From positions 248,001-312,000 of the forward strand of contig NZ_BMCG01000004.1 of the NCBI RefSeq assembly GCF_014635065.1: a DNA stretch of 64,000 nucleotides, given 5' to 3'. The notes under the pieces are model-generated. The model did no database searches and was not told the DNA's origin. It saw nothing but the letters and a program-made list of their open reading frames with translations. Made by a program: the position numbers and the translations under genes. This document shows positions 405 through 19,188 of the stretch, in pieces (position 1 is the stretch's first letter; each line of letters begins with the position of its first letter). Source of the stretch: Oxalicibacterium flavum. GTDB lineage: Bacteria > Pseudomonadota > Gammaproteobacteria > Burkholderiales > Burkholderiaceae_D.

Positions 405-478
405 CTTTACTCGGCTAAAAACATCTGCTAAAGTATTTTGTATGCAATATTCAATTTATGTTTTTTGAGGAGATAGAT

Positions 479-1702: not shown

Positions 1703-1764
1703 AGCGAACCCACAACCAACGTTCAACACCGTCGATGCCCGATCTCGATGTCGATGTCTGATGC

Positions 1765-1820
1765 GTGCCGCAACATGACGTTGCGGTACGCAGTAATACG
1801 CCCGCACCACGTTGTGGGCA
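1765..1820 (+). other. Two intercistronic hairpins between aminotransferase and dehydrogenase
   Basis: GTGCCGCAAC at 1765-1774 pairs with GTTGCGGTAC at 1780-1789 across a 5-nt loop. A second hairpin starts at 1800 (GCCCGCA with TGTGGGC). Neither is followed by a T-run, so they look like mRNA processing or stability elements rather than intrinsic terminators. They imply that the 133-nt gap may set different expression of the two genes (inference). Confidence 0.4.
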
Positions 1821-1835
1821 AAGGATGTATGCACC

Positions 1836-4832
1836 ATGACCGTGAAGCCGATTCATTTCGCACGACAAGCCAGCCCTGTAACTAGCCCGCTTGCCGCACG
1901 CCTGCGCAAAGAACTGCGAGGAGACGTGCTGTTCGGGCAAGCCGATCGCGGGCGTTACGCAACCGATGCATCGATCTACCAGATCATGCCGATAGGCGTG
2001 GTGGTGCCGCGCGATCAGAAAGACTTGTTGCTGGCGCTGGAGATTGCGCAGTCTGAAAAGGCGCCGATTCTCGCGCGTGGTGGCGGTACCAGCCAGTGCG
2101 GTCAGACAGTGGGCGAAGCACTTGTCATCGATAACAGCAAGTGGCTGAACAACGTAATCGAGTTCGATGCGGTAGCGCGGACCATCATTGTCGAACCCGG
2201 CATGGTCCTCGATCATCTGAATGCCTGGCTGAAGCCTTACGGCCTCTGGTTCCCGGTAGATGTCTCGACCGCGGCGCAATGCACGATCGGCGGCATGGCC
2301 GGTAACAATTCCTGCGGTTCGCGTTCCATCGAATACGGCAACATGGTGCACAACGTGCTCGCGATCGATGCCGTGCTGGCCGACGGCACGCAAGGCCGGT
2401 TCGAAACCATCGACGCCATGGTGCAGACGCCGCGCCTGCAATCCATCGTCGAACGCATCCAGCAGATCGCGCAGCGCGAACATGCGGAGATCATCGAGCG
2501 CATTCCCAAGGTGCTGCGCCGCGTCGGCGGCTACAACATCGACGTGTTCGACTGCCAGAACCCGCGCGCCTATACCGACGACGGCAAGGCCAACCTCGCG
2601 CACATCCTGGTCGGCTCGGAAGGTACGCTCGCCTACAGTCGCCAGATCAAGCTCAAGCTCGCGCCGCTGCCCAAGCACAAGGTGCTGGGCGTCATCAACT
2701 TCCCGACCTTCTACAAGGCGATGGATTCGGCGCAGCACATCGTCAAGTTGCTGCCGGTGGCGGTCGAACTCGTTGACCGCACCATGATCGACCTGTCGCT
2801 GAACATCGCCGCCTTCCGTCCGGTGATCGAGAAGGCGCTGGTCGGCTCGCCGCAGGCGATCCTGCTGGTCGAGTTCGCCGGCGACGACCAGGCTGCGCTC
2901 GTGCAGCGGCTGGCGGCGCTGTCGGACCTGATGAGCGATCTCGGCCTGCCGGGCATGGTGGTCGATATGGTGGATGCCAACGAGCAGAAAGCGCTATGGG
3001 ACGTGCGCAAGGCCGGCCTCAACATCATGATGAGCATGAAGGGCGATGGCAAGCCGGTGTCCTTCATCGAGGATTGCGCGGTGCCGCTCGAACACCTGGC
3101 CGCCTATACCGACAAGCTGACCGAGGTCTTCCACAAGTACCACACCGAAGGCACGTGGTACGCGCATGCGAGCGTGGGTACGCTGCACGTGCGGCCGATT
3201 CTCGACATGCGCCGCGACGGCGCGGCCGACATGCGCGCGATCGCGGAAGAAGCATCGGCGCTGGTGCGCGAATACAAGGGCGCCTATTCGGGCGAGCACG
3301 GCGACGGCCTGTGCCGCGGCGAATGGGTGGCATGGCAGTACGGCCCCAGGCTGAACCGCGCCTTTTCCGAAATCAAGGACCTGTTCGATCCGGACAACCG
3401 CTACAACCCGGACAAGATCGTGCGGCCGCCGAAGATGGACGAGAAGTCCAACTTCCGCTTCAAGCCCGGCTACCGCGAACTGCCGCTGCAGACGAAGCTC
3501 GACTGGTCGGCGTGGAACGTCAAACGCGATCCGGCGACCGGCGTGGAAACGCCGCCCGGCACCGGCGACGACCTGACCGGCGGCCTGGCGAAGGCGGTCG
3601 AGATGTGCAACAACAACGGCCACTGCCGCAAGTTCGACGCCGGCACCATGTGCCCGAGCTACCGCATCACCAAGGACGAGCGCCACGTCACGCGCGGCCG
3701 CGCCAACACGCTGCGGCTGGCGATCTCGGGCCAGCTCGGCGACGACGGTCTGGCCAGCGCCGAGGTCAAGGAAGTGCTCGACCTGTGCGTCTCGTGCAAG
3801 GGCTGCAAGCGCGACTGCCCGACCGGTGTCGATATGGCGCGCATCAAGATCGAGGCACGGGCGGCATGGGCCAAGCGCAATGGCATCACCTTGCGGGACA
3901 AGCTGGTTGCATTCATGCCGCGTTATGCGCCGGTGGCGAGTCGCTTCGGTGTCTTGCTGAGCGCAGGCGAAAAGTTGCCCTTCATCGGCAACTGGGTCAA
4001 GAAAGCGATCGGACTGGCACCGCAACGTTCGTCGCCTGCATTCAAGACGTCCTTCCTGTCGAAGGTCTCTGCTTCGCCGGCCAAGGCGAGCGGCATGGAA
4101 GTGATGCTGTTCGTCGATACGTTCAACAATTACATGGAACCGGAAAACGCACGCGCAGCGCAGCAGGTGCTGGAAGCGGCCGGTTACCACGTGCACTTCA
4201 ATACACGTCAGGGCGAACGCCCGCTCTGTTGCGGTCGTACGTATCTGTCTGCAGGGTTGGTCGAACAGGCCAAGGAAGAGGCGCGTCGCACGCTGGATGC
4301 GCTGATGCCTTTCGTCGAGCGCGGTGTGCCGATTGTCGGTCTGGAGCCATCCTGTCTGCTGTCCCTGCGCGATGAGTTCCTGAACTACGGTTATGGCGAG
4401 GAAGCGCGTCGTCTGGCAAACAATGCATTCCTGTTCGAGGAGTTCCTGGTACGCGAACGCAAGGCCGATCGTCTCAAGCTGGATCTGAAACCATTGCCAT
4501 CGAACAAGGCGATGGTGCACGGACACTGTCATCAGAAGGCGTTCGATGCCTTCCGTCCCGTGCCGGAAATTCTCAAGTGGATTCCGGATCTCGATGTCTC
4601 GGTGATTGAATCGTCGTGCTGCGGCATGGCCGGCAGTTTCGGTTATGAACACGAACATTACGAGGCATCGCTGGCGATGGCGGAACTATCGTTGCTGCCG
4701 GCCATACGCAAAGCGGAGAAGGGAACGATTTTCGTTGCCGACGGGACGAGTTGCCGGCATCAGATTCAGGATGGGACGGAAGAAACGCCGTTGCACGCAG
4801 CGCGCGTGCTTGCGATGGCATTGCAGCAATGA
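1836..4832 (+). CDS. FAD-linked oxidase / [4Fe-4S] / CCG-domain D-2-hydroxyacid dehydrogenase
   Basis: A 999-residue three-part flavoprotein. The N-terminal half is the FAD-binding PCMH and FAD-oxidase C domains (ARGGGTSQCGQT, GGMAGNNSCGSRS, SGEHGDGLCRGEW). Two ferredoxin-type cysteine clusters begin near Cys591 and Cys651 (CVSCKGCKRDCP). Two cysteine-rich CCG units follow, with CC pairs at 798-799 and 928-929. This matches the YdiJ/D-2-hydroxyglutarate and D-lactate dehydrogenase family, which passes electrons from 2-hydroxyacids to the quinone pool. The ATG at 1836 is chosen over an upstream TTG at 1812 because AAGGA precedes it. Between an aminotransferase that uses glyoxylate and another hydroxyacid dehydrogenase, glycolate, glycerate or lactate are plausible substrates; sequence alone does not decide. 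Confidence 0.85.
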   Translation: MTVKPIHFARQASPVTSPLAARLRKELRGDVLFGQADRGRYATDASIYQIMPIGVVVPRDQKDLLLALEIAQSEKAPILARGGGTSQCGQTVGEALVIDNSKWLNNVIEFDAVARTIIVEPGMVLDHLNAWLKPYGLWFPVDVSTAAQCTIGGMAGNNSCGSRSIEYGNMVHNVLAIDAVLADGTQGRFETIDAMVQTPRLQSIVERIQQIAQREHAEIIERIPKVLRRVGGYNIDVFDCQNPRAYTDDGKANLAHILVGSEGTLAYSRQIKLKLAPLPKHKVLGVINFPTFYKAMDSAQHIVKLLPVAVELVDRTMIDLSLNIAAFRPVIEKALVGSPQAILLVEFAGDDQAALVQRLAALSDLMSDLGLPGMVVDMVDANEQKALWDVRKAGLNIMMSMKGDGKPVSFIEDCAVPLEHLAAYTDKLTEVFHKYHTEGTWYAHASVGTLHVRPILDMRRDGAADMRAIAEEASALVREYKGAYSGEHGDGLCRGEWVAWQYGPRLNRAFSEIKDLFDPDNRYNPDKIVRPPKMDEKSNFRFKPGYRELPLQTKLDWSAWNVKRDPATGVETPPGTGDDLTGGLAKAVEMCNNNGHCRKFDAGTMCPSYRITKDERHVTRGRANTLRLAISGQLGDDGLASAEVKEVLDLCVSCKGCKRDCPTGVDMARIKIEARAAWAKRNGITLRDKLVAFMPRYAPVASRFGVLLSAGEKLPFIGNWVKKAIGLAPQRSSPAFKTSFLSKVSASPAKASGMEVMLFVDTFNNYMEPENARAAQQVLEAAGYHVHFNTRQGERPLCCGRTYLSAGLVEQAKEEARRTLDALMPFVERGVPIVGLEPSCLLSLRDEFLNYGYGEEARRLANNAFLFEEFLVRERKADRLKLDLKPLPSNKAMVHGHCHQKAFDAFRPVPEILKWIPDLDVSVIESSCCGMAGSFGYEHEHYEASLAMAELSLLPAIRKAEKGTIFVADGTSCRHQIQDGTEETPLHAARVLAMALQQ

Positions 4833-4902
4833 ATAAGTTGAAGCGCTAGGTAAGTCCGGATTGGCCAGAGGCCAGCGTTCATATTCACACAGGGGAAATG
4901 CA

Positions 4903-5856
4903 ATGCAGAATCAAACATCTATGAAAATGGCTATCGTCGGCGTCGGGGCGGTTGGTGCGGCAACGGCTATGACTATCGTGCTGCGGGGTCATGTGCACGA
5001 ACTCATTCTTATCGACAAGGATGCAGCCCGCGCCAAGGCGGTGGCGACTGACATGAAGTACGGCGTGCCACTATCGCCACTGATGACCGTCCGTGCTGGC
5101 GACTACGAGGACCTGGAAGGTGCCGGCCTCGTCGTCATCACGGCCGGTATCAACGAAAAAGCCGGCGGCGCGACCGACCGTTCGGACCCGGCTGGGCGCC
5201 TTCGCTTACTCGACACCAACGTCAAGATATTCGAAGACATTGTGCCGCGCATCGTCAAAGTGGCGCCTCAGGCGGTGATCCTGGTCGCAACGAATCCTCC
5301 TGAGCCATTGGTCGAAGTCGCGCGACAGCTCGCCGGCCATGATCGCGTCATGAGTACTAGCACAGCACTCGACAGCCTGCGCTTCCGCGTGCATCTGGCG
5401 GAGCGGCTGAGTGTAAGTCCTGCCTATGTCAATGCCCACGTAATCGGCGAACATGGTACGTTCAGCGTCTTCCTGTGGTCGTCAGCGCGCGTCGGCAGCT
5501 TGCCAATCAAAAACGTGCTTGCCAAGAAAAACATCGAGTTTGAGGCTTTCCGTAAGGCAGTTGAGGACGATGTCCGCTACGCCAACATCACAATTATCGA
5601 GGGCACAGGCGCGAGTCAGTACGGCATCGGCATGGTTGTAGGCCGCGTCGCAGAGGTCATCCTGCGCGACGAGCGGGCAGTGTTTCCGGTCGGTTCGCAT
5701 AACCGTGATTACGGCATCACACTTTCGCTGCCGAGCGTCGTCGGCGCGGCCGGTATTTGTGACGTACTGATGCCGGAAATGACGGAGGGCGAACTTGCCG
5801 GCCTTGTGCGCAGCGCCGACCGCCTGCGCGAAGTGACAGGAAAATACTTGCGCTGA
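4903..5856 (+). CDS. Atypical lactate/malate-type NAD(H)-dependent 2-hydroxyacid dehydrogenase
   Basis: 317 residues. The Rossmann motif GVGAVG is at 13-18 and Asp38 at the end of beta-2 favours NAD over NADP. TNPPEPL, the catalytic Asp157/Arg160 pair (DSLRFR) and the proton-relay His184 (GEHG) mark the LDH/MDH family. Two things are unusual. The substrate loop after AGINEK carries extra residues (about 86-97) in place of the usual GESR-type segment, and GEHGD has become GEHGT. The substrate is therefore probably neither plain lactate nor malate. Start chosen at ATG 4903, behind an AGGGGA stretch. It follows the flavin dehydrogenase by 70 nt on the same strand. Confidence 0.75.
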   Translation: MQNQTSMKMAIVGVGAVGAATAMTIVLRGHVHELILIDKDAARAKAVATDMKYGVPLSPLMTVRAGDYEDLEGAGLVVITAGINEKAGGATDRSDPAGRLRLLDTNVKIFEDIVPRIVKVAPQAVILVATNPPEPLVEVARQLAGHDRVMSTSTALDSLRFRVHLAERLSVSPAYVNAHVIGEHGTFSVFLWSSARVGSLPIKNVLAKKNIEFEAFRKAVEDDVRYANITIIEGTGASQYGIGMVVGRVAEVILRDERAVFPVGSHNRDYGITLSLPSVVGAAGICDVLMPEMTEGELAGLVRSADRLREVTGKYLR

Positions 5857-5948
5857 CGTGGAACATCAGCCGCCATCCTGAGTTACGCAAGCGCTTGCGG
5901 ACAGCTGACACCATTTTCGGCAATTACAAAATTCCCTTTTAGACTTTT

Positions 5949-6005
5949 TAACTCCAACTGGAAGCATGGCTTGCGGTTGCCGCAAGATTTATGCGTATAG
6001 GCTCA
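5949..6005 (+). repeat. Direct repeat element, copy A, upstream of the GlcG-like gene
   Basis: Begins TAACTC, runs through ACTGGA and GCAT, then a near-identical 35-nt core starting TTGCGGTTGCCGCAAG at 5971 and ending AGGCTCA at 6005. Copy B at 6498-6556 precedes the PhyH gene. The core contains a dyad, CTTGCGG-TTG-CCGCAAG (5970-5986). Placement before both genes suggests a shared promoter with an operator (inference). Confidence 0.7.
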
Positions 6006-6072
6006 GTACACATCGCGACTGACCGCACGCATTGTCTATCGACAATGTCAGCTCATTTTTAAAGGAGGCACT

Positions 6073-6480
6073 ATGCAAACAAAACAGGTTCTTACACTCG
6101 AAGAAGTCAAGAAAATCGCTGCCGGCGCTGAAACAGAAGCAAAACTGCACAAATGGAATGTGACGATTGCTATCGTTGACGATGGTGGTAATTTGCTATG
6201 GCTGCAACGCATGGATAGTGCCGCACCGATTTCGTCGCACATTGCGCCAGCCAAAGCAAAAACGGCCGCTCTCGGTCATCGCGAATCCAAAGTTTATGAA
6301 GACATCATCAATAATGGACGTTATGCCTTCATGACGGCCCCAACGCTGGAAGGTATGCTGGAAGGTGGCGTACCGATCATGGTTAACGATCAATGCGTTG
6401 GCGCAGTTGGCGTTTCCGGTGTCAAATCCAACGAAGACGTGCAGATTGCCAAGGCAGGTATCACTGCGCTCGGACTTTGA
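6073..6480 (+). CDS. GlcG/HbpS-family (DUF336) protein
   Basis: 135 residues, full length for the family. VTIAIVDDGGNLLWLQRMD, the central helices with AKAKTAA and the glycine-rich C-terminal VGAVGVSGVKSNEDVQIA are diagnostic. Family members bind haem or small cofactors (HbpS) or sit in glycolate-utilisation operons (GlcG); the biochemical role of GlcG is not settled. AAAGGAGG at 6061-6068 is a near-consensus ribosome site. It has its own promoter region with repeat copy A, so it is likely co-regulated with, but transcribed separately from, the hydroxyacid genes upstream. Confidence 0.85.
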   Translation: MQTKQVLTLEEVKKIAAGAETEAKLHKWNVTIAIVDDGGNLLWLQRMDSAAPISSHIAPAKAKTAALGHRESKVYEDIINNGRYAFMTAPTLEGMLEGGVPIMVNDQCVGAVGVSGVKSNEDVQIAKAGITALGL

Positions 6481-6497
6481 TTTAGTCCATTCCTGAT

Positions 6498-6556
6498 TAA
6501 CTCATAAACTGGACGCATAATCTTGCGGTTGCCGCAGGATTATGCGTCTAGGCTCA
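6498..6556 (+). repeat. Direct repeat element, copy B, upstream of the PhyH-like dioxygenase gene
   Basis: Same order of blocks as copy A: TAACTC, ACTGGA, GCAT, then a core starting TTGCGGTTGCCGCAGG at 6523 and ending AGGCTCA at 6556. One dyad arm differs by one base and the core lacks one T. The match runs over nearly 60 bp while the surrounding sequence is unrelated, so it was either duplicated or retained by selection as a regulatory module. Confidence 0.7.
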
Positions 6557-6639
6557 TCCTGCATTTCATTAACATTCCGGCAGAAGCGCGCTGACAGCGT
6601 GACACATGATTCTTTGGGCAAGAGGCCCATTTTCATCTC

Positions 6640-7431
6640 ATGAATTCGCAGCCCACCATGACGTCGGATACGGGGTTATCTGAAACGCAAATCACCCAAT
6701 TCGCGCGTGATGGCTTTCTTGTGTTTCGCGGCATGGCTGATAAGGCTATATGCGAACATATGCTCACCGTCGCCTCCCGACAATTACAGGAAGCAGCGCA
6801 ACCGCTGGAGTTCGAAGCCGAGCTTGGCTACGCAGGCGCGCCGTCATCACTCGAGGCTGAAGGCGGCCGAACCGTTAGACGCCTGCGCGGCGCCTATGAT
6901 CGCGATGCATGCTTTCACGACTGGGCTGAAGATCCGCGTATCGTCGATAAGGTGCGTCAACTGGTCAACGAACCGGTTTGCCTGACACTTGCACATCACA
7001 ATTGTGTGATGACCAAACATCCGCAGTACGGCACCGCAACCGGCTGGCATCGCGACATTCGCTATTGGGCATTCACCCAACCAGATCTGATCTGTGTGTG
7101 GCTGGCGCTTGGCGAAGAAACTTCGGCCAATGGTGGCTTGCGCTTCATCCCTGGCTCACATCGCTTGCAGATCCCACGCGATCAATTGGATGATCTGCTA
7201 TTCCTGCGCCCTGAACATCCTGCCAATCAGGCGCTGTTTGAACAAGGACAAGCGATCGAGTTGCATCAGGGTGATGTGGTGTTTTTCCATAGCCTGCTGT
7301 TCCATGCAGCAGGCGTCAATACATCCAACGTCGTGAAGAAATCGGTCGCCTTTGTTTATCACGGCTGCAGCAATCAGCCCTTGCCAAACACGCGCTCATC
7401 GTCGGCAGCAGACATCCGTTTATCGGATTAA
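6640..7431 (+). CDS. Phytanoyl-CoA dioxygenase (PhyH)-family Fe(II)/2-oxoglutarate oxygenase
   Basis: 263 residues with the double-stranded beta-helix motif: His137-x-Asp139 in GWHRDIRYW, then GSHR and distal His222 in LLFHAAGVNTS. The order and spacing fit non-haem Fe(II), 2-oxoglutarate-dependent hydroxylases of the PhyH superfamily, which act on phytanoyl-CoA, ectoine, phosphonates and many small acids. The substrate is not recognisable. The start is uncertain: ATG 6640 has a distant AGAGG (6621), and ATG 6658 is an alternative. A clear terminator follows at 7458. Its role may be hydroxylation of a compound whose product enters the 2-hydroxyacid pathway (inference). Confidence 0.8.
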   Translation: MNSQPTMTSDTGLSETQITQFARDGFLVFRGMADKAICEHMLTVASRQLQEAAQPLEFEAELGYAGAPSSLEAEGGRTVRRLRGAYDRDACFHDWAEDPRIVDKVRQLVNEPVCLTLAHHNCVMTKHPQYGTATGWHRDIRYWAFTQPDLICVWLALGEETSANGGLRFIPGSHRLQIPRDQLDDLLFLRPEHPANQALFEQGQAIELHQGDVVFFHSLLFHAAGVNTSNVVKKSVAFVYHGCSNQPLPNTRSSSAADIRLSD

Positions 7432-8273: not shown

Positions 8274-9506
8274 TCAGAAACGCTGGCGAATGCCCACGCC
8301 CACGCTGACTGCGTTGGATTGCTCGGTGATCTTGTCGACGCTGACCACGCCATAGATATCCGTGCGCTTGGAAAAGAAATAGTCGTAGCCCAGCGAGGCC
8401 GTGTTGCGCACGATCGACGACTGCACGTCCGAGCCGCCCAGAACGGCGCTGAAATCGCCTTTTGCCTTCACATTGGTGCGTGCCCACGAAAACAGCACCG
8501 AGCCGTTGCCGGCGGGGATGCTGGTTCCCAGCTGCACCGTGTTCGATTTGAGATCGTACTGGCTGTCGTCGGCCGCGCCGATCAGTCGCATCGTCGAGTA
8601 ATTGAGGGTGCCGAACAGTTTCATGAAGCGCAGGTCGTAGGCGCCGCCGACGAACCAGGTATCGTTCTTCGAGGCGGACAAGGTATACGTCGCGCCGCTC
8701 ACCCTGTTGTAAGGCGTGAAGCTGAACACCTGCGAATCGCCGCTGACGGTGGCGTCGAGCGGATTGTTGACCTTGACCGACTGGAAGTAGGCGCCGAAGG
8801 AAAGCGGCCCCTGCTCGTACATGGTGTTCACGCCGAAATTGTTCTTGCCCGAGTTGCCGGCCTGTTCGCCGAACTGGAAGAACAGGCTGGTGGTGAAGCC
8901 GCCGAGCTTGGGCGTGACGTACATGATCTCGTTGCTCCAGCCGGTATCGCCGGAAACGGTGGGCGACCAGGCCTGGCCGCGATAGCTGCCGGCGGAAGTC
9001 TGCGTATGCAGTTCGAGCGGAGCGAATGCGAACGAGCCGCCGAACGGGCTGAAGCTCAGCGTCGGGATGAAATTGGGTGCCAGGTTGCGTCCCACGGAGA
9101 CGCTGCCGAACGAACCGGACAGGCCGACATTGGCATCGCGCGAGAACATCGTATCGCCATCAAAGCGACCGCTGGCACCGCTGTCCGGGCGCAGGAAGCC
9201 GGTCAGCGCGAAATGCGCCTGCAGGCCATTGCCCAGGTCTTCCTTGCCCTTGAAGCCCCACCAGGAGGTTTCCATGCCGCTGCTATCGACGACCGAGGTC
9301 CGGCCGTTGTCGCCGCTGCGCTTGATGGAACCGGCGTAGGCATCGATGGTGCCGCCTATCTGCACGGAGGTCTGCGCCAGCGCCGCCGTTGATGCCATGC
9401 ACGCCGCCAGGCCCAGCATGCCGCCCATGGCAGCATGCCGCAGCGATGTTTCCGAAGCGCGTCCTGCTGCGCGCAAGACGCTTCCCTTCGTTGCGATTTC
9501 CTTCAT
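8274..9506 (-). CDS. Gram-negative outer-membrane porin (Burkholderiales trimeric type)
   Basis: 410 residues. The start at 9504-9506 (MKEIATKGS) follows GAGGAG. A signal peptide ends LAACMASTAALAQ, then the mature barrel begins TSVQIGGTIDAYAG. The chain is rich in alternating beta strands and ends in Phe (GIRQRF), the usual signal for BAM-dependent insertion. It belongs to the OmpC-like general porins of betaproteobacteria and would pass small hydrophilic solutes. It is downstream of the amidase genes on the same strand, so passage of amides is an attractive but unproven role. A small GC hairpin at 8229-8250 follows the stop. Confidence 0.9.
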   Translation of the reverse strand: MKEIATKGSVLRAAGRASETSLRHAAMGGMLGLAACMASTAALAQTSVQIGGTIDAYAGSIKRSGDNGRTSVVDSSGMETSWWGFKGKEDLGNGLQAHFALTGFLRPDSGASGRFDGDTMFSRDANVGLSGSFGSVSVGRNLAPNFIPTLSFSPFGGSFAFAPLELHTQTSAGSYRGQAWSPTVSGDTGWSNEIMYVTPKLGGFTTSLFFQFGEQAGNSGKNNFGVNTMYEQGPLSFGAYFQSVKVNNPLDATVSGDSQVFSFTPYNRVSGATYTLSASKNDTWFVGGAYDLRFMKLFGTLNYSTMRLIGAADDSQYDLKSNTVQLGTSIPAGNGSVLFSWARTNVKAKGDFSAVLGGSDVQSSIVRNTASLGYDYFFSKRTDIYGVVSVDKITEQSNAVSVGVGIRQRF

Positions 9507-9660
9507 TGTCTCTTCTCCTCTTGTATTTGTATTTGCGCGACGAGCGCGCAATCGGGCGAACCGAGCAATCTCGATTTGCCTTGCCGATACTAGGAGAGAA
9601 GGAGAATGCGATCTTGTCCGTCAACGAACAAATCATTGTCCGCAGGACGATGCCGGGAAA

Positions 9661-10401
9661 CTACTGCCGTTTCGGTGCGCGTTCCGCCTGGCGCCTGGCA
9701 TCGCGCGCTTCGGCATAACCGAGTACCAGAAGCAGCACGATGGGCAGCAGCAAGGCCTGGAAGCCGAAGCGGAAGCAGGCGAAGGCCGCGATCAGTGCAC
9801 CGAGGCCGAAGGCGATCATCGGCCAGAAATGCTTGGCGCATCGGTTGCGCGCCTTCTTCCCGCCGCGACCCTGGAGAAGTTCGATGAAATCGATCACGAG
9901 CTGCGTGACGTTGCCCGTCATCATGACGGTCGGTGCGAGTTCCGGCAGCAGCAGGCGGCCGCAGGCACCGTGCACGCCCATCGCCATTGCGCCCGTGATG
10001 CCGGCGAAAATGGCCGCGCCCGACATGTTTTCTTCGATCGGCCCGGCGACGAGGCCGACCAGCATGAAGACGGTAAGCAGCACCATCTCGACCGCGTACA
10101 GCGCGAGCAGTGCATTGCTTCCCTTGCGCTGGCAGCGGGTCGCGATCATCTTCGCCAGCGCCACACCGATGATGAAGGCCGGCAGGGCGAGAATCTTCAG
10201 CAGCGGGAAAGTATGTCCGGGCGTGGCCATTTCTGCGCCGAGCAGGACGAAGTTGCCGGTGATGTGGGCGGTGAACAGGCCGAACAGTGCGATGAAGCCG
10301 AAGGCATCGACATAGCCGGCCAGAAAGCCGAGCGCGATATTCAGGGAGAGTGTCGAGCGCAGTCTCCCGTGGGCCTGGGCGCGTCGCAGCAGCGATCGCA
10401 T
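9661..10401 (-). CDS. DUF1275 (YoaK-family) integral membrane protein
   Basis: 246 residues with six or so hydrophobic helices. GYVDAFGFIALFGLFTAHITGN near the N-terminus and the MMTGNVTQ repeat of that motif are hallmarks of the YoaK/DUF1275 family, whose transport or regulatory role is unknown. The C-terminus is short and basic. It lies 85 nt downstream of the AraC-amidase fusion on the same strand, with no clear terminator between, so cotranscription is plausible. Confidence 0.8.
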   Translation of the reverse strand: MRSLLRRAQAHGRLRSTLSLNIALGFLAGYVDAFGFIALFGLFTAHITGNFVLLGAEMATPGHTFPLLKILALPAFIIGVALAKMIATRCQRKGSNALLALYAVEMVLLTVFMLVGLVAGPIEENMSGAAIFAGITGAMAMGVHGACGRLLLPELAPTVMMTGNVTQLVIDFIELLQGRGGKKARNRCAKHFWPMIAFGLGALIAAFACFRFGFQALLLPIVLLLVLGYAEARDARRQAERAPKRQ

Positions 10402-10486: not shown

Positions 10487-12961
10487 TCATGAAATATCCG
10501 GAAACAGCGATTTGCGGACGATGGCATGCACGCCCCAGTTGCCGTTCACCACCTGCGTCACGCCGAAATCCACGCCGACCGAGATCAGCGAGATGGCCTC
10601 GTCCTCGGTGAGTTTGTGCGCGGTCATCAGGTAGCGCCGTACCTTGCGGAAAGCGTCGCGCATCGCCAGGTCCAGCGAGGCGTTCTTATAGACATCCGTT
10701 TCCGCCAGCGGTCCCAGTTGCGCCAGGTGATTGGCATAGCTGAAGCCCTGGATCACCCATTCGGTCTCGGTCTCCAGGAACGGATAATCGAGATCGGCGA
10801 AGAAGCCGCCCTCCAGGTTCTTCTTCTTGTGCAGCAAGAGCTGGAATTTTCCGCTCAGTGAGCATTCGATCGCCGTGCCGCACAGTTCGGAATCGCCTTG
10901 CGAGGCATGCGGGTCGCCGACCGAGAACAATGCGCCCTCGACCGCCACCGGCAGATAGAGTCTGGCACCCTTGGTGGCGCGCCAGTTGTCGAGATTGCCG
11001 CCGAAGTAGCTCGGCGGCACCGAATCGATCGGCTCCTCGTGCGCCGGCGCCACCGCCAGCACGCCGAAGTGCGGTCGCACCGGAATGCGCACGCTCTTGA
11101 GCACGTCGAAATTCTTCTCGATGGTGTCGTGATCAACCGGTACGCCCGGATAATCCATCGTTTCGTGTACCACGCCGAACGGATCGGTCTGCGGTGTCCA
11201 GCGGAAGTTATAGACCGCCTTGGCGCAACTGCCGTGGTCGGCATCGAGGATTTCATAGACGGTCACGACCTCGCGCGGCTTGGGCTCGGTCAGCAGGTCG
11301 TGATAGTGAAAGCCCCACCACAGCGCCGCGTTGCTGCCGAACGACTGGCCGGCGTACTTTGGGTTGGCGGCCGGCCTGGGCATGACGTCGAGGATACGTA
11401 TTTCGAGCACGTCGCCGGGTTCGGCATCGCGTACATAGACCGGTCCGGTGCAGATATGCACGCCGAAACCTTCGCCCGCGCCGCGGCCGAAGATCGAGGC
11501 ATCGATCGGCCCCGCGCCGCGGCGGTCGATGGCCTTCCTGTCCTTGTCCCAGTAGAAGATGCTTTCGATGCCGGCGTCGCCCTGGATCATGCGTTCGTAA
11601 TCGTCGTAGGCGTGCTGGGTGACGGTTTCGATGGTCAGGCAGTCGCCGGAATCGATGGTCAGGATGGGTTTGATGAGACTGCTGAAGTAGCCCCAGTGCA
11701 CGGTGTTGGCGGAAGCCGGGATGTAATAGTGCGTACCGGTCTGTTCTTCCTCGTCCGCGTCATCGGTCTTGTGCGCAGCGGAGCGCTTGGGCGTCAGCGC
11801 CAGCGAGGTTTCCAGCAGCGCCGCTTCCACCAGCACTTCGGCGAAGCGCGCGCTGCGCGGCAGTTCCTCGTTCTGCGCCAGCGCATTCTTGGCATGCTCG
11901 GTTGACGACGGCGTGGGCCGGCCGCGCAATTCGTAGCGCTTTTCGGCGGCGCGCGGTTGCGAGCGGTAGGCCTTGGGCGAGACGCCGTATTCGAGATGAA
12001 AGGCGCGGCTGAAGTTGGCGGCGTCGTTGAAGCCCCAGCGGAAACACAGTTCGGAGATCGTCAGATGCCTGAGGCTCTTGCTGGCGAGGTCGATGCGGCA
12101 GCGGTCGAGGCGGCGCTTCTTCACGTACTCGCCGAAGGTGGTGCCGGCCGAGGCGAACAGTTTCTGCAGATAGCGCGCCGACAATTGCTCGGAGCGGGCG
12201 ATATCGACTGCCGACAGGTCGGGATCGGTCAGCCGAGCCTCGATGGTGCGGCAGATGCGGCGCAGGTGGCTGAGCTGCATCGAGGTTGACTGTTCGCCGT
12301 CGTCCTCGTCCTTGTGCGCGAGGCCGGCGACGAACATCGCGCCGAGCGCACCCTCCATCTGCTCGAGGTCCTCGGGACCGAGCGAGGGCAACTGGAAGGT
12401 GATGGTCTTGACGAATTCGAACGCGATGTTGCCGATGCCCGAGACCGACGAGATCTTGCAGATGTCGGACTTCCCGGTGTGCATCAGCCGCGATATGAAG
12501 TTGCTTTTTTCCAGCCGGATGACGCAGGCGCGAAACGCGGAGGCGAGTTCCAGCTTCCATTCGCGGGAAGAGTCCAGCAGGTAAATGTCGCCGGACGAGA
12601 CGACCGCCGATTCGGCGCCGACGTCGATCTGACCGACGCCATCGAACAGCACGAATGCGGTGACGCAATCCGTGCGCACGAGCATGGCGGGGTCGCGCGC
12701 CGTGAATGCCTGCGGCGAGGCATTCAGCGTGCCGAATACGGAACCTGTCTGCGAAACGCCGAACGTGATGTAGCCGACCAGGGCGGCCTTGTTGCGGCTC
12801 GATATCTCGGAGCGCAGCGCCAGGCTGGCAAGCGCGTTCTGCCACGCCTCTTCACGCAGTTCCACCGGAAATGCGTCTGTAGAGAATGGTTGCGGATCGT
12901 CATGCATGCCTGGCCCTTTCGTTCCCGGTAGGGTAACTGAAACGAGAGCATCGGGCGTCAT
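10487..12961 (-). CDS. Fusion of AraC-type transcriptional regulator and acetamidase/formamidase
   Basis: One uninterrupted 824-codon frame. Residues about 40-215 form an AraC-binding-like sensor domain. Residues about 232-335 are a double helix-turn-helix AraC domain (LSAVDIARSEQLSARYLQKLF, then ISELCFRWGFNDAANFSRAF and GVSPKAYR). A low-complexity, acidic linker spans about 336-408 (DDADEEEQ). Residues 409-824 are a complete FmdA/AmdA-type amidase that aligns from HYYIPA to the end with the stand-alone enzyme at 13627-15051. They retain GDAGIESIFYWDKD, AIDRRGAGP and GDPHASQGDSELCGTAIE. No frameshift or stop lies in the linker. Start could also be Met19 (12905-12907, behind AAAGGG). Cytoplasmic; predicted to bind DNA and hydrolyse short amides to ammonium and an acid. 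The joining of both activities in one chain is the notable point. Confidence 0.85.
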   Translation of the reverse strand: MTPDALVSVTLPGTKGPGMHDDPQPFSTDAFPVELREEAWQNALASLALRSEISSRNKAALVGYITFGVSQTGSVFGTLNASPQAFTARDPAMLVRTDCVTAFVLFDGVGQIDVGAESAVVSSGDIYLLDSSREWKLELASAFRACVIRLEKSNFISRLMHTGKSDICKISSVSGIGNIAFEFVKTITFQLPSLGPEDLEQMEGALGAMFVAGLAHKDEDDGEQSTSMQLSHLRRICRTIEARLTDPDLSAVDIARSEQLSARYLQKLFASAGTTFGEYVKKRRLDRCRIDLASKSLRHLTISELCFRWGFNDAANFSRAFHLEYGVSPKAYRSQPRAAEKRYELRGRPTPSSTEHAKNALAQNEELPRSARFAEVLVEAALLETSLALTPKRSAAHKTDDADEEEQTGTHYYIPASANTVHWGYFSSLIKPILTIDSGDCLTIETVTQHAYDDYERMIQGDAGIESIFYWDKDRKAIDRRGAGPIDASIFGRGAGEGFGVHICTGPVYVRDAEPGDVLEIRILDVMPRPAANPKYAGQSFGSNAALWWGFHYHDLLTEPKPREVVTVYEILDADHGSCAKAVYNFRWTPQTDPFGVVHETMDYPGVPVDHDTIEKNFDVLKSVRIPVRPHFGVLAVAPAHEEPIDSVPPSYFGGNLDNWRATKGARLYLPVAVEGALFSVGDPHASQGDSELCGTAIECSLSGKFQLLLHKKKNLEGGFFADLDYPFLETETEWVIQGFSYANHLAQLGPLAETDVYKNASLDLAMRDAFRKVRRYLMTAHKLTEDEAISLISVGVDFGVTQVVNGNWGVHAIVRKSLFPDIS

Positions 12962-13035: not shown

Positions 13036-13230
13036 CTAGCTTACAAAGACCAGTTGTCCGCGCAGGGCGGCAACGAACAGGAAGCCGATGAAGGTGCCCA
13101 GGATGGCGAAGATGCCGCCAAGCACGTTGGGGGCCGGAATCGGTGCGCGCACCGAGGTATAAATCAATCCGGTAACCAGGCCGACGCAGGACGCCAGCAG
13201 TTCGGTGGTGCCAAATCCAATCTCGATCAT
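13036..13230 (-). CDS. XapX-domain (DUF1427) small membrane protein 2
   Basis: 64 residues with two hydrophobic helices separated by the family signature RAPIPAPNVLGGIFAILGTFIG. XapX proteins are small and of unknown function, often beside amidase, purine or urea-type catabolic genes. GGAGAC precedes the ATG. It is a paralogue of the gene at 13275-13484 and lies 44 nt downstream of it. The pair may form a heteromeric membrane protein, by analogy with other paired small membrane proteins (inference). Confidence 0.8.
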   Translation of the reverse strand: MIEIGFGTTELLASCVGLVTGLIYTSVRAPIPAPNVLGGIFAILGTFIGFLFVAALRGQLVFVS

Positions 13231-13274: not shown

Positions 13275-13484
13275 TTATTCCTTGGGGTGGCCGAATACCA
13301 CCGCCTTGCGGAAGACCTGCACGATCAGATAGCCGATGTAGGTGAAGATGATGGCGAAGATGCCGCCGAGGACGTTGGGCGCCGGGATCGGCAGGTTCAG
13401 CCATGAGTACAGCGTGCCCGTGATCAGGCCGACGACCAGCGCCACGATTTCGTTCCTGCCGATATAGACGTGTTCGGGTTTCAT
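13275..13484 (-). CDS. XapX-domain (DUF1427) small membrane protein 1
   Basis: 69 residues starting MKPEHVYIGRNE at 13482-13484, behind a strong GGAGGAG. Two transmembrane helices flank LNLPIPAPNVLGGIFAII, the XapX signature. Upstream in-frame ATGs extend to 13580 but run through the preceding terminator region and lack ribosome sites. It is probably the first gene of a two-gene transcript with 13036-13230, bounded by terminators at 13583 and 12998. Confidence 0.8.
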   Translation of the reverse strand: MKPEHVYIGRNEIVALVVGLITGTLYSWLNLPIPAPNVLGGIFAIIFTYIGYLIVQVFRKAVVFGHPKE

Positions 13485-13626: not shown

Positions 13627-15051
13627 TCACTTGGGAAAGATGTCCTTCCGGATGATGGCGTGCACGCCCCAGTTGCCGTCGACGACCTGAGTCACGCCGA
13701 AGTCCACCGAGATGGAGATCAGCGAGATCGCCTCGTCTTCCGACAGGTTGCGCGTGTCCATGAAGAAGCGGCGCGTCTTGTTGAAGGCGTCGGTCATGGC
13801 GGTATCGAGCGAACCCTTGATCAGCGCGGTCGGGTCTTCGGCGCCGGCGAACTCCTGCAGATAGTTCGGGCTGCTGAAGCCGTGCACGATCAGTTCGCTG
13901 GCGGTTTCGAGCAGCGGATAGTCGAGGCCGTACAGCTTGGTGCCCGGCAGGTCCGCCTTCTTGTGCAGGATGAACTGGAACAGGCCGGTCAGCGAGCACT
14001 CGATGGCGGTGCCGCACAGTTCCGCATCGCCCTGCGACGCATGCGGGTCGCCGATCGAGAACATCGCGCCGGCCACCGAGACCGGGAAGAAGCAGGTCGC
14101 GCCCTTGCCGGTACGCCAGTTGTCGAAGTTGCCGCCGGTGTAGCTGGGCGGGTTGGACGAGACGATGTCCGCTTCCGCTGGCGCTACGGTCACCATGCCG
14201 AAGTGCGGACGCACCGGGATCTCGTAGCCCTTGAGCACATCGTAGTTGGGCGTGATCAGGCTTCTGTTGACGGGAATGCCCGGGTAATCGATGGTCGGAT
14301 GCACGCGGCCCGAAGGATCGGTTTGCGGCGTCCAGCGATAGTTGTAGACCGCCTTGGCGAAGGTCTGCTGGCTGGTGGCGTCAACCTCATAGACGGTGAT
14401 GACTTCGCGCTGCTTCGGTTCGGTGATCAGGTTGTTGTACTGCAGACCCCAGTTGGCCGCCACGTTGACGCCGAAGGACTTGCCGCGATAATCGGGATTG
14501 CTCGACGGACGCTGCATGGTGTCGATGATGCGCACCTCGAGCACGTCGCCCGGCTCGGCGCCATTCACATAGACCGGCCCGGTGCACACGTGCACGCCCA
14601 TGCCGCCGCCGGCACCGGCCGGGTGGTCCATCGGACCCGCGCCGCGACGGTCGATCGCCTTGCTGTCCTTGTCCCAGTGGAAGATGCTTTCGACGCCGGC
14701 GTCGCCCTGGATCATCCGTTCGTAGTCGTCGAAGGAGTGGTGGGTGACGGCTTCGATGGTGGCGTAGTCACCGGAATCCAGCTTCACCAGCGGATCCATG
14801 GACTTGCTGAAGTAGCCCCAGTGGACGGTATCCTTGTTGGCCGGGATGTAGTAGTGCTTGACGTTCTCGCCTTCCTTCTTGGAAGGCAGCGGACGTTGCG
14901 TGACGCCGCCGGTACCTGCCTTGCCGCTGACTTTGGTACCGCCGATATTGGAACGTAGGCTGTGACGCGCTTCCGCGAACTCCGCCTGCAGGTCGGGGTC
15001 GTTCAGGTGAGAAAAGTGATTGCATCCAGCGCTGCAAATATGATCTGACAT
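13627..15051 (-). CDS. Acetamidase/formamidase (FmdA/AmdA family)
   Basis: 474 residues. An N-terminal segment of about 65 residues with HICSAGCNHF precedes the catalytic domain, which starts HYYIPANKDTVHWGYF. Conserved motifs are GDAGVESIFHWDKD, AIDRRGAGPMD, VHVCTGPVYV, VRPHFGMV and GDPHASQGDAELCGTAIE. The family hydrolyses formamide or acetamide to ammonium and formate/acetate in the cytoplasm. AGGAGAC lies just before the ATG. A terminator follows immediately. The AraC-amidase fusion 660 nt downstream is a paralogue of the catalytic part and is the obvious candidate to regulate this gene. Substrate preference cannot be read from the sequence. Confidence 0.9.
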   Translation of the reverse strand: MSDHICSAGCNHFSHLNDPDLQAEFAEARHSLRSNIGGTKVSGKAGTGGVTQRPLPSKKEGENVKHYYIPANKDTVHWGYFSKSMDPLVKLDSGDYATIEAVTHHSFDDYERMIQGDAGVESIFHWDKDSKAIDRRGAGPMDHPAGAGGGMGVHVCTGPVYVNGAEPGDVLEVRIIDTMQRPSSNPDYRGKSFGVNVAANWGLQYNNLITEPKQREVITVYEVDATSQQTFAKAVYNYRWTPQTDPSGRVHPTIDYPGIPVNRSLITPNYDVLKGYEIPVRPHFGMVTVAPAEADIVSSNPPSYTGGNFDNWRTGKGATCFFPVSVAGAMFSIGDPHASQGDAELCGTAIECSLTGLFQFILHKKADLPGTKLYGLDYPLLETASELIVHGFSSPNYLQEFAGAEDPTALIKGSLDTAMTDAFNKTRRFFMDTRNLSEDEAISLISISVDFGVTQVVDGNWGVHAIIRKDIFPK

Positions 15052-15437
15052 AAGTCTCCTGATTTTCTGATGGCACCACTTGATCGTGGTCTGTGTCAGA
15101 TCATAGGAGCGCAGGAATCGGGATTCTTGTTCAGAGGCGCACTATTTGTTGTCGAATGTTGTGAGCGCGCTGTTGCAAGGCATCCTTAACTGCTATGTGG
15201 AGGGGCATATCTGAGCAGGTGGCTGGTGACCATGCAGTCATGTTCATGCGGTCGTCGAATGGGCTTGCAGGTGCGTATCATCCTTTGTCGCCTTGAGCGA
15301 CGCGCATCGGTTGGCAGCCCTTGGAACACAAAAAGGAGATGGGACTTGTCGATACATGGTTTTCAGGACATGCGCCATCCTTCGATAGCAGGTTGTGTTG
15401 ATGCGTGGCAATGTGGCAATACTTCAGGAAGATTTCG
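15052..15437. other. 386-bp divergent spacer between amidase and DNA glycosylase
   Basis: Contains the amidase promoter region. A TATGAT -10 candidate reads leftward at 15105-15100, and related TGCGCCTC and TGCGCTCC blocks upstream of it could be AraC half-sites. No -35 consensus is present, as expected for an activator-dependent promoter. Small frames here (20-25 codons) were not judged real. Confidence 0.4.
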
Positions 15438-16898: not shown

Positions 16899-17405
16899 AT
16901 GTCTAACAAGCAGTTCAATATCTTGTTTCTCTGTACTGGCAACTCCGCACGCTCCATCATGGCTGAAGCCCTTGTGACGACCATGGGCCATGGTCAATTC
17001 AAAGGCTACAGTGCTGGCAGTAACCCCAACGGCGTCGTCAATCCATATGCGATTGAGCAGGTCAAAAAGACGGGTTATCCAACGGACAATCTCCGTAGTA
17101 AAAGCTGGGACGAGTTCGCAGCACCTGATGCGCCTCACATGGACTTCATCATCACTGTTTGCGACAACGCCGCTGGCGAAGTGTGTCCAATCTGGCCAGG
17201 TCATCCATCATCGGCACATTGGGGATTTCAGGACCCTGCGGCTGTTGAAGGTACTGACGAAGACAAGCGTGCAGCATTCGAACGCGTCTTCAAGCAAATC
17301 TTGGCTCGCATGAACACCTTCGTCAGCTTGCCGCTCAACATGCTGGAGAAGCATGCCATTCATCAGGAAATCAAAAAGATTGGCGCAACTCCTGTTGCTG
17401 AGTAA
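16899..17405 (+). CDS. arsC: Arsenate reductase, low-molecular-weight phosphatase type
   Basis: 168 residues. The P-loop FLCTGNSARS places the nucleophile at Cys12. Cys88 and Cys96 (TVCDNAAGEVCPIWPG) are positioned for the resolving disulfide relay, and the Asp of WGFQDPA is the acid. It reduces arsenate to arsenite, which the next gene exports. The family is thioredoxin- or glutathione-coupled; which reductant is used here is not visible. AAAGGAAA precedes the start and acr3 follows after 9 nt. Confidence 0.9.
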   Translation: MSNKQFNILFLCTGNSARSIMAEALVTTMGHGQFKGYSAGSNPNGVVNPYAIEQVKKTGYPTDNLRSKSWDEFAAPDAPHMDFIITVCDNAAGEVCPIWPGHPSSAHWGFQDPAAVEGTDEDKRAAFERVFKQILARMNTFVSLPLNMLEKHAIHQEIKKIGATPVAE

Positions 17406-17414
17406 GGACAGAAG

Positions 17415-18452
17415 ATGGGACGCTTCGAACGATACCTGACAGTATGGGTTGGCTTGTGCATCATTGCAGGTGTCATCCTCGGGAAGCTCTTCCCATCTCT
17501 GTTCCAATCCCTTGCCCAAATGGAAGTCGCACAGGTCAATCTGCCTGTCGGCCTTCTCATCTGGGTAATGATTATCCCGATGCTGGTCAAAATCGACTTC
17601 TCTGCGCTCTCACAGGTGAAAAATCATTGGCGCGGCATTGGTGTGACACTAGTCATCAACTGGTTAGTCAAGCCATTCTCGATGGCACTACTGGGCTGGC
17701 TCTTCATTCGACATGTCTTCGCAGATTGGCTGCCGGCAGACCAGATTGACAGCTACATCGCTGGCCTAATCCTGCTTGCGGCTGCGCCCTGTACGGCAAT
17801 GGTGTTTGTGTGGAGCCAGCTATGCAAGGGCGATCCTTACTTCACGCTATCGCAAGTAGCATTGAACGACGCCATCATGATTGTGGCGTTTGCACCGTTG
17901 GTTGCACTGCTTCTCGGCATGGCATCCATTACGGTGCCGTGGGATACGCTTATCACGTCGGTCGGCTTGTACATCATCGTGCCGGTTGTCTTGGCGCAGA
18001 TGATTCGAAAGACACTGCTCAAGCAAGGACCAGATGCCTTGACAAAGGTCTCCCAGCAGTTGGGACCGTTCTCGATAGCGGCCCTGTTGTTGACGTTGGT
18101 CTTGCTGTTTGCTTTCCAGGGTGAAGCTATAACCGAACAACCGCTTGTTATCGGCATCCTTGCTATCCCCATCCTGATTCAGGTCTTCCTGAACTCAGGG
18201 CTGGCTTACGTACTAAACCGCAAGCTCGGTGTGGCGCACTGCGTTGCAGGGCCATCCAGCCTCATCGGTGCTTCAAATTTCTTTGAGTTATCCGTAGCGA
18301 CCGCCATTAGCCTCTTCGGCTTTCAGTCTGGAGCGGCCTTGGCAACCGTGGTCGGCGTACTGATAGAAGTGCCGGTCATGCTGTTAGTCGTCGGCATCGT
18401 CAATCGGTCACAGGGTTGGTACGAGGCAGGCATTGGAAGCAATGGGAAATGA
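17415..18452 (+). CDS. acr3: ACR3-type arsenite efflux permease
   Basis: 345 residues, about ten transmembrane helices, inner membrane. The essential cysteine lies in [16 protein letters not shown] (Cys126), and the C-terminal half-repeat carries a [19 protein letters not shown] motif of the bile/arsenite/riboflavin transporter superfamily. It exports As(III) by proton antiport. It sits tightly between arsC (9 nt) and arsH (1 nt), implying one transcript. Confidence 0.92.
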
Positions 18453-18453
18453 C

Positions 18454-19188
18454 ATGACAAACAGCAATGCAGAACTACCAAATTTATCGTCTCAACTCGA
18501 CATACCCACACACGCGCAGTTAGACGCATCGGGCGTCTCCAAGCATCCACCTCGAATTCTTCTGCTGTATGGCTCGCTTCGTGAGCGTTCATACAGCAAG
18601 CTATTGACGCTGGAAGCTGAAAGAATCCTGAAGCACTTTGGTGCCGAAACAAGAGTCTTCGACCCGACTGGCTTGCCAACGGTCGATAGCTGCCCAGCAG
18701 ACCATCCAAAAGTGCAGGAGCTACGCAATCTATCTGCATGGTCTGAAGGTCATGCCTGGTGCAGTCCCGAGCGTCATGGCGCAATGACGGGTGTATTTAA
18801 ATCCCAGATTGACTGGTTGCCACTTGAAGTCGGCAGCATCCGCCCTACGCAAGGGCGAACGCTGGCGGTGATGCAAGTGAGCGGCGGCAGCCAGTCATTT
18901 AACGCTGTCAATCAGTTGCGTGTACTCGGCCGCTGGATGCGCATGGTCACTATCCCGAATCAAAGTTCGGTTGCCAAGGCATTCGAAGAGTTCGATGACG
19001 CCGGGCGGATGAAGCCATCCAGCTATTACGACCGCTTGGTCGACGTGATGGAAGAACTGTACAAGTTCACACTTCTTGTTCGCGACCGGTCGGAATACCT
19101 AACCGACCGATACAGCGAACGTAATGCAGAACAAGAGAAACAACGGGCTGCCTTGGCAGCTAAGGCCATGAGTCATGAAAGGAAGTAA
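18454..19188 (+). CDS. arsH: ArsH, NADPH-dependent FMN reductase / organoarsenical oxidase
   Basis: 244 residues from ATG 18454, one base after the acr3 stop. The flavodoxin-like fold is indicated by [15 protein letters not shown] (phosphate loop) and by [36 protein letters not shown] follows. Family members oxidise trivalent organoarsenicals such as methylarsenite and reduce azo dyes or quinones. An upstream in-frame ATG at 18433 overlaps acr3 and is less likely. A strong terminator at 19361 ends the operon. Confidence 0.9.

Follow-up and report, generated by a model that had tools for sequence, protein, structure and literature searches.

AraC proteins normally end at their helix-turn-helix (HTH), and AraC/XylS family members use paired half-sites that lie about two helical turns apart and reach the -35 region. 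The protein considered here is encoded on the minus strand of a 64,000-nucleotide stretch of the Oxalicibacterium flavum genome (contig NZ_BMCG01000004.1, positions 248,001 to 312,000; hereafter the window, with positions counted from its first letter), and it carries an AraC-type regulator and an acetamidase/formamidase in one chain. It resembles AraC/XylS activators (the FeaR/AraC_binding_2 type; CuxR, ToxT, Rns) in its cupin sensor, long helices, double HTH and predicted half-sites over the -35 region, but a 420-residue enzyme domain follows its HTH. With the FmdA/AmdA amidases, whose nearest solved member is 3b9t of Methylobacillus flagellatus, it shares the whole fold and 62-63% domain identity; unlike them, it is joined to a regulator, has a loop with Arg493 and Phe499, and belongs to a family in which 64 of 92 fused domains have Gln in place of His449. 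MocR/GabR proteins join a GntR-type winged HTH to an aminotransferase-like domain (PMC6917764), and the fusion is like them in plan (a transcription factor with an enzyme-derived effector domain and a flexible linker); it differs in HTH class, enzyme fold and domain number and keeps an AraC sensor, so it is not a member. The gene set of its setting (amidase, porin and ATP-binding cassette (ABC) uptake) is that of the Methylophilus fmdCABDEF regulon, in which formamidase, an outer-membrane porin and ABC amide uptake are co-induced by formamide, but the putative regulator there is a separate gene (PMC10781810). In Variovorax, a stand-alone AraC gene lies beside amiD (PMC11573777), which is similar in its AraC-type amidase control but involves two proteins and an enzyme of the amidase-signature family. 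Open-access literature searches aimed at the AraC-amidase fusion, whose loose matches were only partly covered, found no paper describing it, in line with the original prediction that it is not a described family, and a search aimed at structure found no paper on the structure of the FmdA/AmdA family. Database records label the fusion either "acetamidase/formamidase family protein" or "AraC family transcriptional regulator". We suggest that it represents a new variant of AraC-family regulators.

The earlier claim of one chain with both an AraC regulator and an acetamidase/formamidase was borne out by the open frame, by the matches to PF12833 and PF03069 and by the fold. The minus-strand frame at 10487-12961 is uninterrupted over 824 codons; in it, a flexible linker connects the AraC sensor and HTH to an FmdA/AmdA amidase domain. 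Because orthologues within the genus begin at residue 19, the probable start is Met19 at position 12907. The features of the fusion are as follows.

10487..12907, minus strand: AraC-amidase fusion gene, 806 residues from Met19 as judged by orthologue starts; the frame extends to 12961
12437..12886, minus strand: AraC-type sensor (cupin/jelly-roll), residues 26-175; strands at 45-132 in the AlphaFold2 model
11957..12280, minus strand: double HTH of AraC type, residues 228-335; PF12833 and fold match
11747..11956, minus strand: linker, residues 336-405; predicted local distance difference test (pLDDT) mostly below 50, one predicted helix
11915..11926, minus strand: residues 346-349, an RGxP motif inside the linker, unchanged in all 89 fusions
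10490..11746, minus strand: FmdA/AmdA amidase domain, residues 406-824; PF03069; 3b9t with E 3.6e-188 and TMt 0.93
11615..11617, minus strand: codon of Gln449; His in all aligned stand-alone and canonical FmdA sequences

The protein was compared with Pfam and NCBIfam models. The HTH_18 match (PF12833) covers residues 255-334 (E 8.7e-18, 64.8 bits against a Pfam cut-off of 33.6), and the FmdA_AmdA match (PF03069) covers residues 501-805 (101.1 bits against 27). AraC_binding_2 scored 17.7 bits in the window protein, below its cut-off of 27, and lay above the cut-off in three relatives, L042 (58.3 bits), L071 (49.4) and L106 (30.7). The best NCBIfam match was FeaR (NF007243; 123.9 bits, below the cut-off of 199), while the formamidase FmdA equivalog NF045496 gave 58.4 bits, under the required 500. 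An AlphaFold2 model built from 57 aligned fusions (mean pLDDT 83.1; predicted template modelling score 0.78) contained a jelly-roll (cupin-type) sensor followed by two long helices and a double HTH, and an amidase fold after a linker that was mostly of low confidence. When this model was used in Foldseek, 3b9t was the top match (418 alignment columns at 62% identity, TMt 0.93), followed by further acetamidases and then by the AraC proteins CuxR (5nla), ToxT and Rns. Judging from the Pfam matches, the model and the Foldseek matches, both modules of the fusion are complete. A free amidase made from an internal ATG, the only start codon considered, was ruled out for the window protein, which lacks Met between residues 228 and 458 (none at 229-457); in 38 of the 89 aligned fusions, however, a Met falls within residues 336-420, and these may yield a free amidase.

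To place the fusion among its relatives, genomes were scanned with the HTH-linker-amidase stretch, which gave at least 460 relatives. The best 80 of the 460, which span the stretch nearly whole, were combined with 11 plasmid loci and the window into a set of 92 loci, which leans to near kin. The plasmid collection held 15 records covering at least 80% of the query, of which these 11 were taken; plasmid L039, with a split fusion, was kept out. HTH and amidase shared one frame in 90 of the 92 loci, two of them (L048 and L119) being cut by contig ends, and the N-terminal sensor was also reached in 89. The two remaining loci were L108, broken into two frames, and L110, ending at a contig edge. An assembly or annotation artefact that joined two genes was thus rejected, and we consider it practically impossible. 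A stop or frameshift in the linker (about 11738-11956), which the original prediction had named as its refutation, is countered by the same relatives.

Fusions were found in Alpha-, Beta- and Gammaproteobacteria, with hosts including Herminiimonas, Pseudomonas, Nitrincola, Aquabacterium, Rubrivivax, Paraburkholderia, Caballeronia, Cupriavidus, Pandoraea, Variovorax, Novosphingobium, Sphingomonas, Bradyrhizobium, Hyphomonas and others. Contrary to the original prediction, the fusion is no oddity, being spread across three proteobacterial classes. Its occurrence within the genus was patchy (9 of 13 genomes). When two to three candidates were scored per genome, it was present in 9 of the 294 genomes of the family sample, every one in the window's genus, only in the window's own genome among the 369 of the class sample, and in 7 of the 398 genomes of the phylum sample (six spanning matches and G688; G739 was not counted). 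Of 144 amidase domains in a quick maximum-likelihood tree, the 92 fused ones fell into one clade (Shimodaira-Hasegawa-like approximate likelihood ratio test, 99), separate from 45 stand-alone and 7 canonical FmdA domains. Since the fused domains form one clade, one old fusion with later spread is the simplest reading of the tree, in which the stand-alone rows are mostly neighbours of fusions and later fissions could go unnoticed. One fusion, L080, on a metagenome-bin contig titled Actinobacteria bacterium, nested among sphingomonad fusions, which indicates a transfer or, more likely, a misplaced contig. Broken copies also exist, of the fusion in L108 and L039 and of a stand-alone amidase in G010:C11:190578-191812. 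G796 (L150), taken up as a further fusion by its frame length, was rejected, since by eye the leading part looks non-coding and the protein like a stand-alone amidase with a twin-arginine-like leader.

The pattern of conservation indicates that the fusion is under strong constraint. Mean pairwise identity among 89 fusions was 0.27 in the sensor, 0.30 in the coil, 0.54 in the HTH, 0.23 in the linker and 0.66 in the amidase domain. Within the otherwise variable linker (aligned length 40-95 residues, median 56), R346, G347 and P349 were invariant in all 89. Compared with four near relatives, nonsynonymous divergence (dN) was 0.051-0.074 for the fused amidase domain and 0.056-0.120 for the stand-alone amidase, the fused domain being lower in three of the four comparisons; synonymous divergence was saturated or undefined, so dN alone was used.

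Not all residues that are invariant in the unfused FmdA/AmdA relatives were kept in the window, where positions 449, 572 and 806 differ. Position 449, in the THH motif, was His throughout the unfused relatives (52 of 52, made up of 45 stand-alone and 7 canonical FmdA sequences); of the 92 fused domains, 28 have His and 64, among them that of the window, have Gln. On the tree this substitution (H449Q) needs two changes; the starred branches are compatible with one. Position 572, a near-invariant Asp in unfused relatives, is Leu in the window and was Asp in 40 of 92 fused domains, and position 806, Asn in the window, was Asp in 54 and Asn in 38. Other polar residues were kept in 92 of 92 fused domains, namely His450, Asp453, Asp462, His502, Asp517, Glu564, Asp603, Arg629, His631, Asn656, Asp658, Arg661, Asp683, His685, Asp690, Glu692 and Glu730, with Glu699 and Asp798 kept in 91 and Glu520 in 89. 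The earlier description of a full-length amidase domain with all motifs of the stand-alone paralogue was thus right about the full fold and close to right, though not exact, about the motifs (Gln449, Leu572, Asn806). Two candidate marks of the fusion were dropped. H449Q was present in 19 of 20 members of a first set, but in the wider set of 89 Gln occurred in 61 and His in 28. The loop GRGxGEGFG, in which Arg493 and Phe499 were found in 89 of 89 fusions and Arg493 in 15 of 39 stand-alones, is not a fusion-only insert, as the stand-alone amidase L040 carries it too.

When upstream regions were compared across the genus, a block common to amidase genes and to fusion genes standing apart was found. 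The predicted operator, ACAA-N18-ACAAG, which is new here, has half-sites 22 bp apart and ends 20-21 nt before a TATGAT- or TAGTAT-like -10 box. It occurs twice in the window.

15126..15152, minus strand: predicted operator upstream of the amidase operon, ACAACAAATAGTGCGCCTCTGAACAAG; spacing of the ACAA half-sites 22 bp
15100..15105, minus strand: -10 box TATGAT, 20 nt after the amidase operator
9613..9639, minus strand: predicted operator before the porin gene, ACAATGATTTGTTCGTTGACGGACAAG; not used to derive the motif
9587..9592, minus strand: -10 box of the porin gene, TAGTAT, 20 nt beyond its operator

These two perfect sites were the only ones within two mismatches in the window, where 0.09 would be expected by chance. 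The pattern ACAAYRANTNGKNCGYNNNNNNACAAR had 20 perfect matches in the 13 genus genomes, 12 of them before amidase genes, 3 before fusion genes and 5 before porin genes. Downstream genes were read for 19 of the 20, and the last (G010:C11) was placed by its distance to an amidase match; seven of the 20 (five porin and two amidase sites) had not been used in deriving the pattern. The three fusion-gene sites came from the three genomes where the fusion gene stands apart. Perfect or one-mismatch sites were absent from G005, G008, G011 and G012, the four fusion-less genomes of the genus. At each site read, TATGAT, TAGTAT or a close variant followed 20-21 nt on, with the proximal half-site in place of a -35 element, and no good -35 was seen by eye at these promoters. 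A proximal half-site in the -35 place is the layout of class II AraC activation, and by sequence the 22-bp spacing and the -10 box 20-21 nt on fit the half-site arrangement of the AraC/XylS family. Porin homology starts 64 nt after the porin operator, a copy that extends the presumed regulon to outer-membrane uptake. The original prediction that the fusion could control the amidase locus gains support from the operator predicted upstream of the operon to which amidase and fusion belong, and from the three genomes in which a separate fusion gene has such an operator of its own.

For other genera, 89 loci were scanned with a matrix built on 19 of the genus sites, leaving out L041 (Herminiimonas sp. 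KBW02) and L053 (Oxalicibacterium solurbis). Scores of at least 14 were obtained in 33 of 89 loci, compared with none of 89 shuffled loci and none of 89 with the reversed matrix; an alternative run over 91 loci with another background gave one reversed-matrix score of 12.0. Most of these sites (29 of 33) lay before amidase, ABC-transporter or fusion genes, where 6.0% of random positions fall. After the matrix was retrained on the same loci, with a cut-off from the control sets, sites were found in 53 of 89 loci, 38 of them in the amidase, ABC or fusion zones, and TANNNT followed 18-23 nt on at 38 of the 53 (34 at 20-21), compared with 33 of 2650 random places. All six fusion loci added subsequently had a site (28.9-36.0), before an ABC binding-protein gene in five and an amidase gene in one; five of the six genomes belong to one family (f216) whose relatives had helped to train the matrix. 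Short loci L123-L126, which end before the promoter, scored at most 7.5, and the wider L181-L184 have the site. None of the eight amidase places without a known fusion had one (best score 5.9); for three of them (L129, L130, L031) the sequence covered reaches roughly 1.5 kb to either side, and L040 was covered as a plasmid record.

On balance we favour, with some reserve, the reading that the fusion is an amide-responsive class II activator of the AraC type, with a C-terminal half that was once an amidase and may still be active. A dimer would bind the operator with its two half-sites and, with amide present, recruit RNA polymerase in the class II manner, turning on amide uptake, amide hydrolysis and the fusion itself; the amide would be read by the amidase domain, and the signal relayed through the flexible linker and its RGxP motif. 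The activator and operator part of this reading seems probable to us. For the amidase domain as main sensor we see the balance as about even, the argument being that this half is much more strongly conserved than the AraC sensor domain and shows a substitution, H449Q, of a His that is otherwise invariant. A tentative and rather unlikely elaboration is that the enzyme acts as both sensor and clock, in which an amide bound in the pocket would lock the activating AraC state, hydrolysis would release it, and H449Q would tune the lifetime of the signal. Several observations weigh against the favoured reading. The AraC sensor fold is present in the model and could be the true effector domain, His449 is kept by 28 of 92 fused domains, and the high conservation of the amidase domain would suit an active enzyme equally well. 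The fusion-less genomes of the genus also lack the amidase, and the match between presence of site and fusion is not independent. With two mismatches allowed, matches appeared in 13 of 13 genomes and in 12 of 13 for the backwards control; three two-mismatch sites lie elsewhere in the window's own genome, and of the three one-mismatch sites, found before a porin gene, before a DUF1275 gene and in G007, the last also counts against it. Even after retraining, 36 of 89 loci had no site above control level, of which early ends of the stretches account for a part.

The loss of His449 may point as much to an enzyme-derived sensor as to a regulating enzyme. Also weighed was a bifunctional trigger enzyme, an idea of the original prediction, in which the fused amidase would be fully active and regulating, with substrate occupancy or turnover setting DNA binding. 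The full amidase fold, the retention of most superfamily-invariant polar residues in 91-92 of 92 fused domains, the low dN of the fused domain and the His449 versions all suit this idea, which we nevertheless regard as unlikely, though worth serious attention: Gln at 449 in 64 of 92 domains and Asn for Asp806 in 38 of 92 speak against it, and 76 of 90 loci have amidase genes, of the same subfamily or the canonical kind, close to the fusion, so that a second enzyme would be unneeded for hydrolysis. It seems improbable to us that the AraC N-terminal domain is the sensor in the manner of FeaR or XylS, with the amidase half tethering, oligomerising or removing inducer locally. Its fold is kept according to AlphaFold2 and Foldseek, FeaR is the best, if sub-threshold, NCBIfam match, and three relatives exceed the Pfam cut-off for AraC_binding_2, but the window's own domain falls below it and mean identity is 0.27 against 0.66 in the amidase half, a weak argument in that sensor domains often vary with their ligand. 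Very improbable, in our judgement, is that the conserved site belongs to another regulator and the fusion just travels with amide genes. The site does follow the gene cluster, but only 4 of 92 loci held further frames resembling the AraC half (E of 1e-10 or better), amidase, porin and fusion loci that lie apart in the same genomes each have the site upstream, and it was absent from the eight amidase places mentioned above.

The gene neighbourhood agrees with amide uptake and breakdown, which, judging from gene content, is the setting of the fusion. In the window, the minus-strand order is amidase, two small XapX-like proteins (a name we presume for these DUF1427-like products), fusion, DUF1275 and porin.

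13627..15051, minus strand: stand-alone member of the same amidase subfamily and first gene of the presumed operon; PF03069 86.3 bits, 3b9t E 1.4e-205
13275..13484, minus strand: small DUF1427/XapX-like protein, the second of two between amidase and fusion; PF07235 E 0.0022, below cut-off
13036..13230, minus strand: small DUF1427/XapX-like protein between amidase and fusion; PF07235 E 0.036, below cut-off
9661..10401, minus strand: DUF1275 membrane protein (Pfam) directly behind the fusion gene, presumably on the same transcript
8274..9551, minus strand: porin (Porin_4), presumed regulon member; PF13609 E 8.8e-43

Over 90 loci, as counted in searches with chosen representatives (clustering of raw frames was swamped by shadow frames), SBP_bac_3 was near the fusion in 30, an ABC permease or ATPase in 36, RidA in 22 and XapX-like proteins in 7, and one Caballeronia fusion locus also holds nitrile hydratase genes. 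The DUF1275 protein may be part of amide handling, because its relative in G006 (L157) is preceded by an operator with one mismatch. Some stand-alone amidases (L150/G796, 3b9t) have twin-arginine-like leaders; by eye, the one in the window seems to lack the arginine pair. Elsewhere in the window, at 16899-19188, a low-molecular-weight phosphatase-type protein, an SBF-family transporter and an FMN reductase stand in a row (Pfam), which we take to resemble an arsenate reductase, ACR3 and ArsH cluster. At 458-7431 lie a class V aminotransferase, an FAD oxidase of about 1000 residues fused to Fe-S/CCG domains, a malate/lactate dehydrogenase, and HbpS-like and PhyH proteins, possibly a glyoxylate or hydroxy-acid pathway.

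These results define a widespread family of fused regulators of which databases name one half only, together with its predicted operator and a predicted regulon of amidase, porin or ABC uptake and the fusion itself. The question of how an enzyme becomes a sensor is familiar mainly from MocR-type proteins, and the natural H449 and Q449 versions would offer ready material on that change. In biotechnology, the fusion may find use as a switch that responds to amides.

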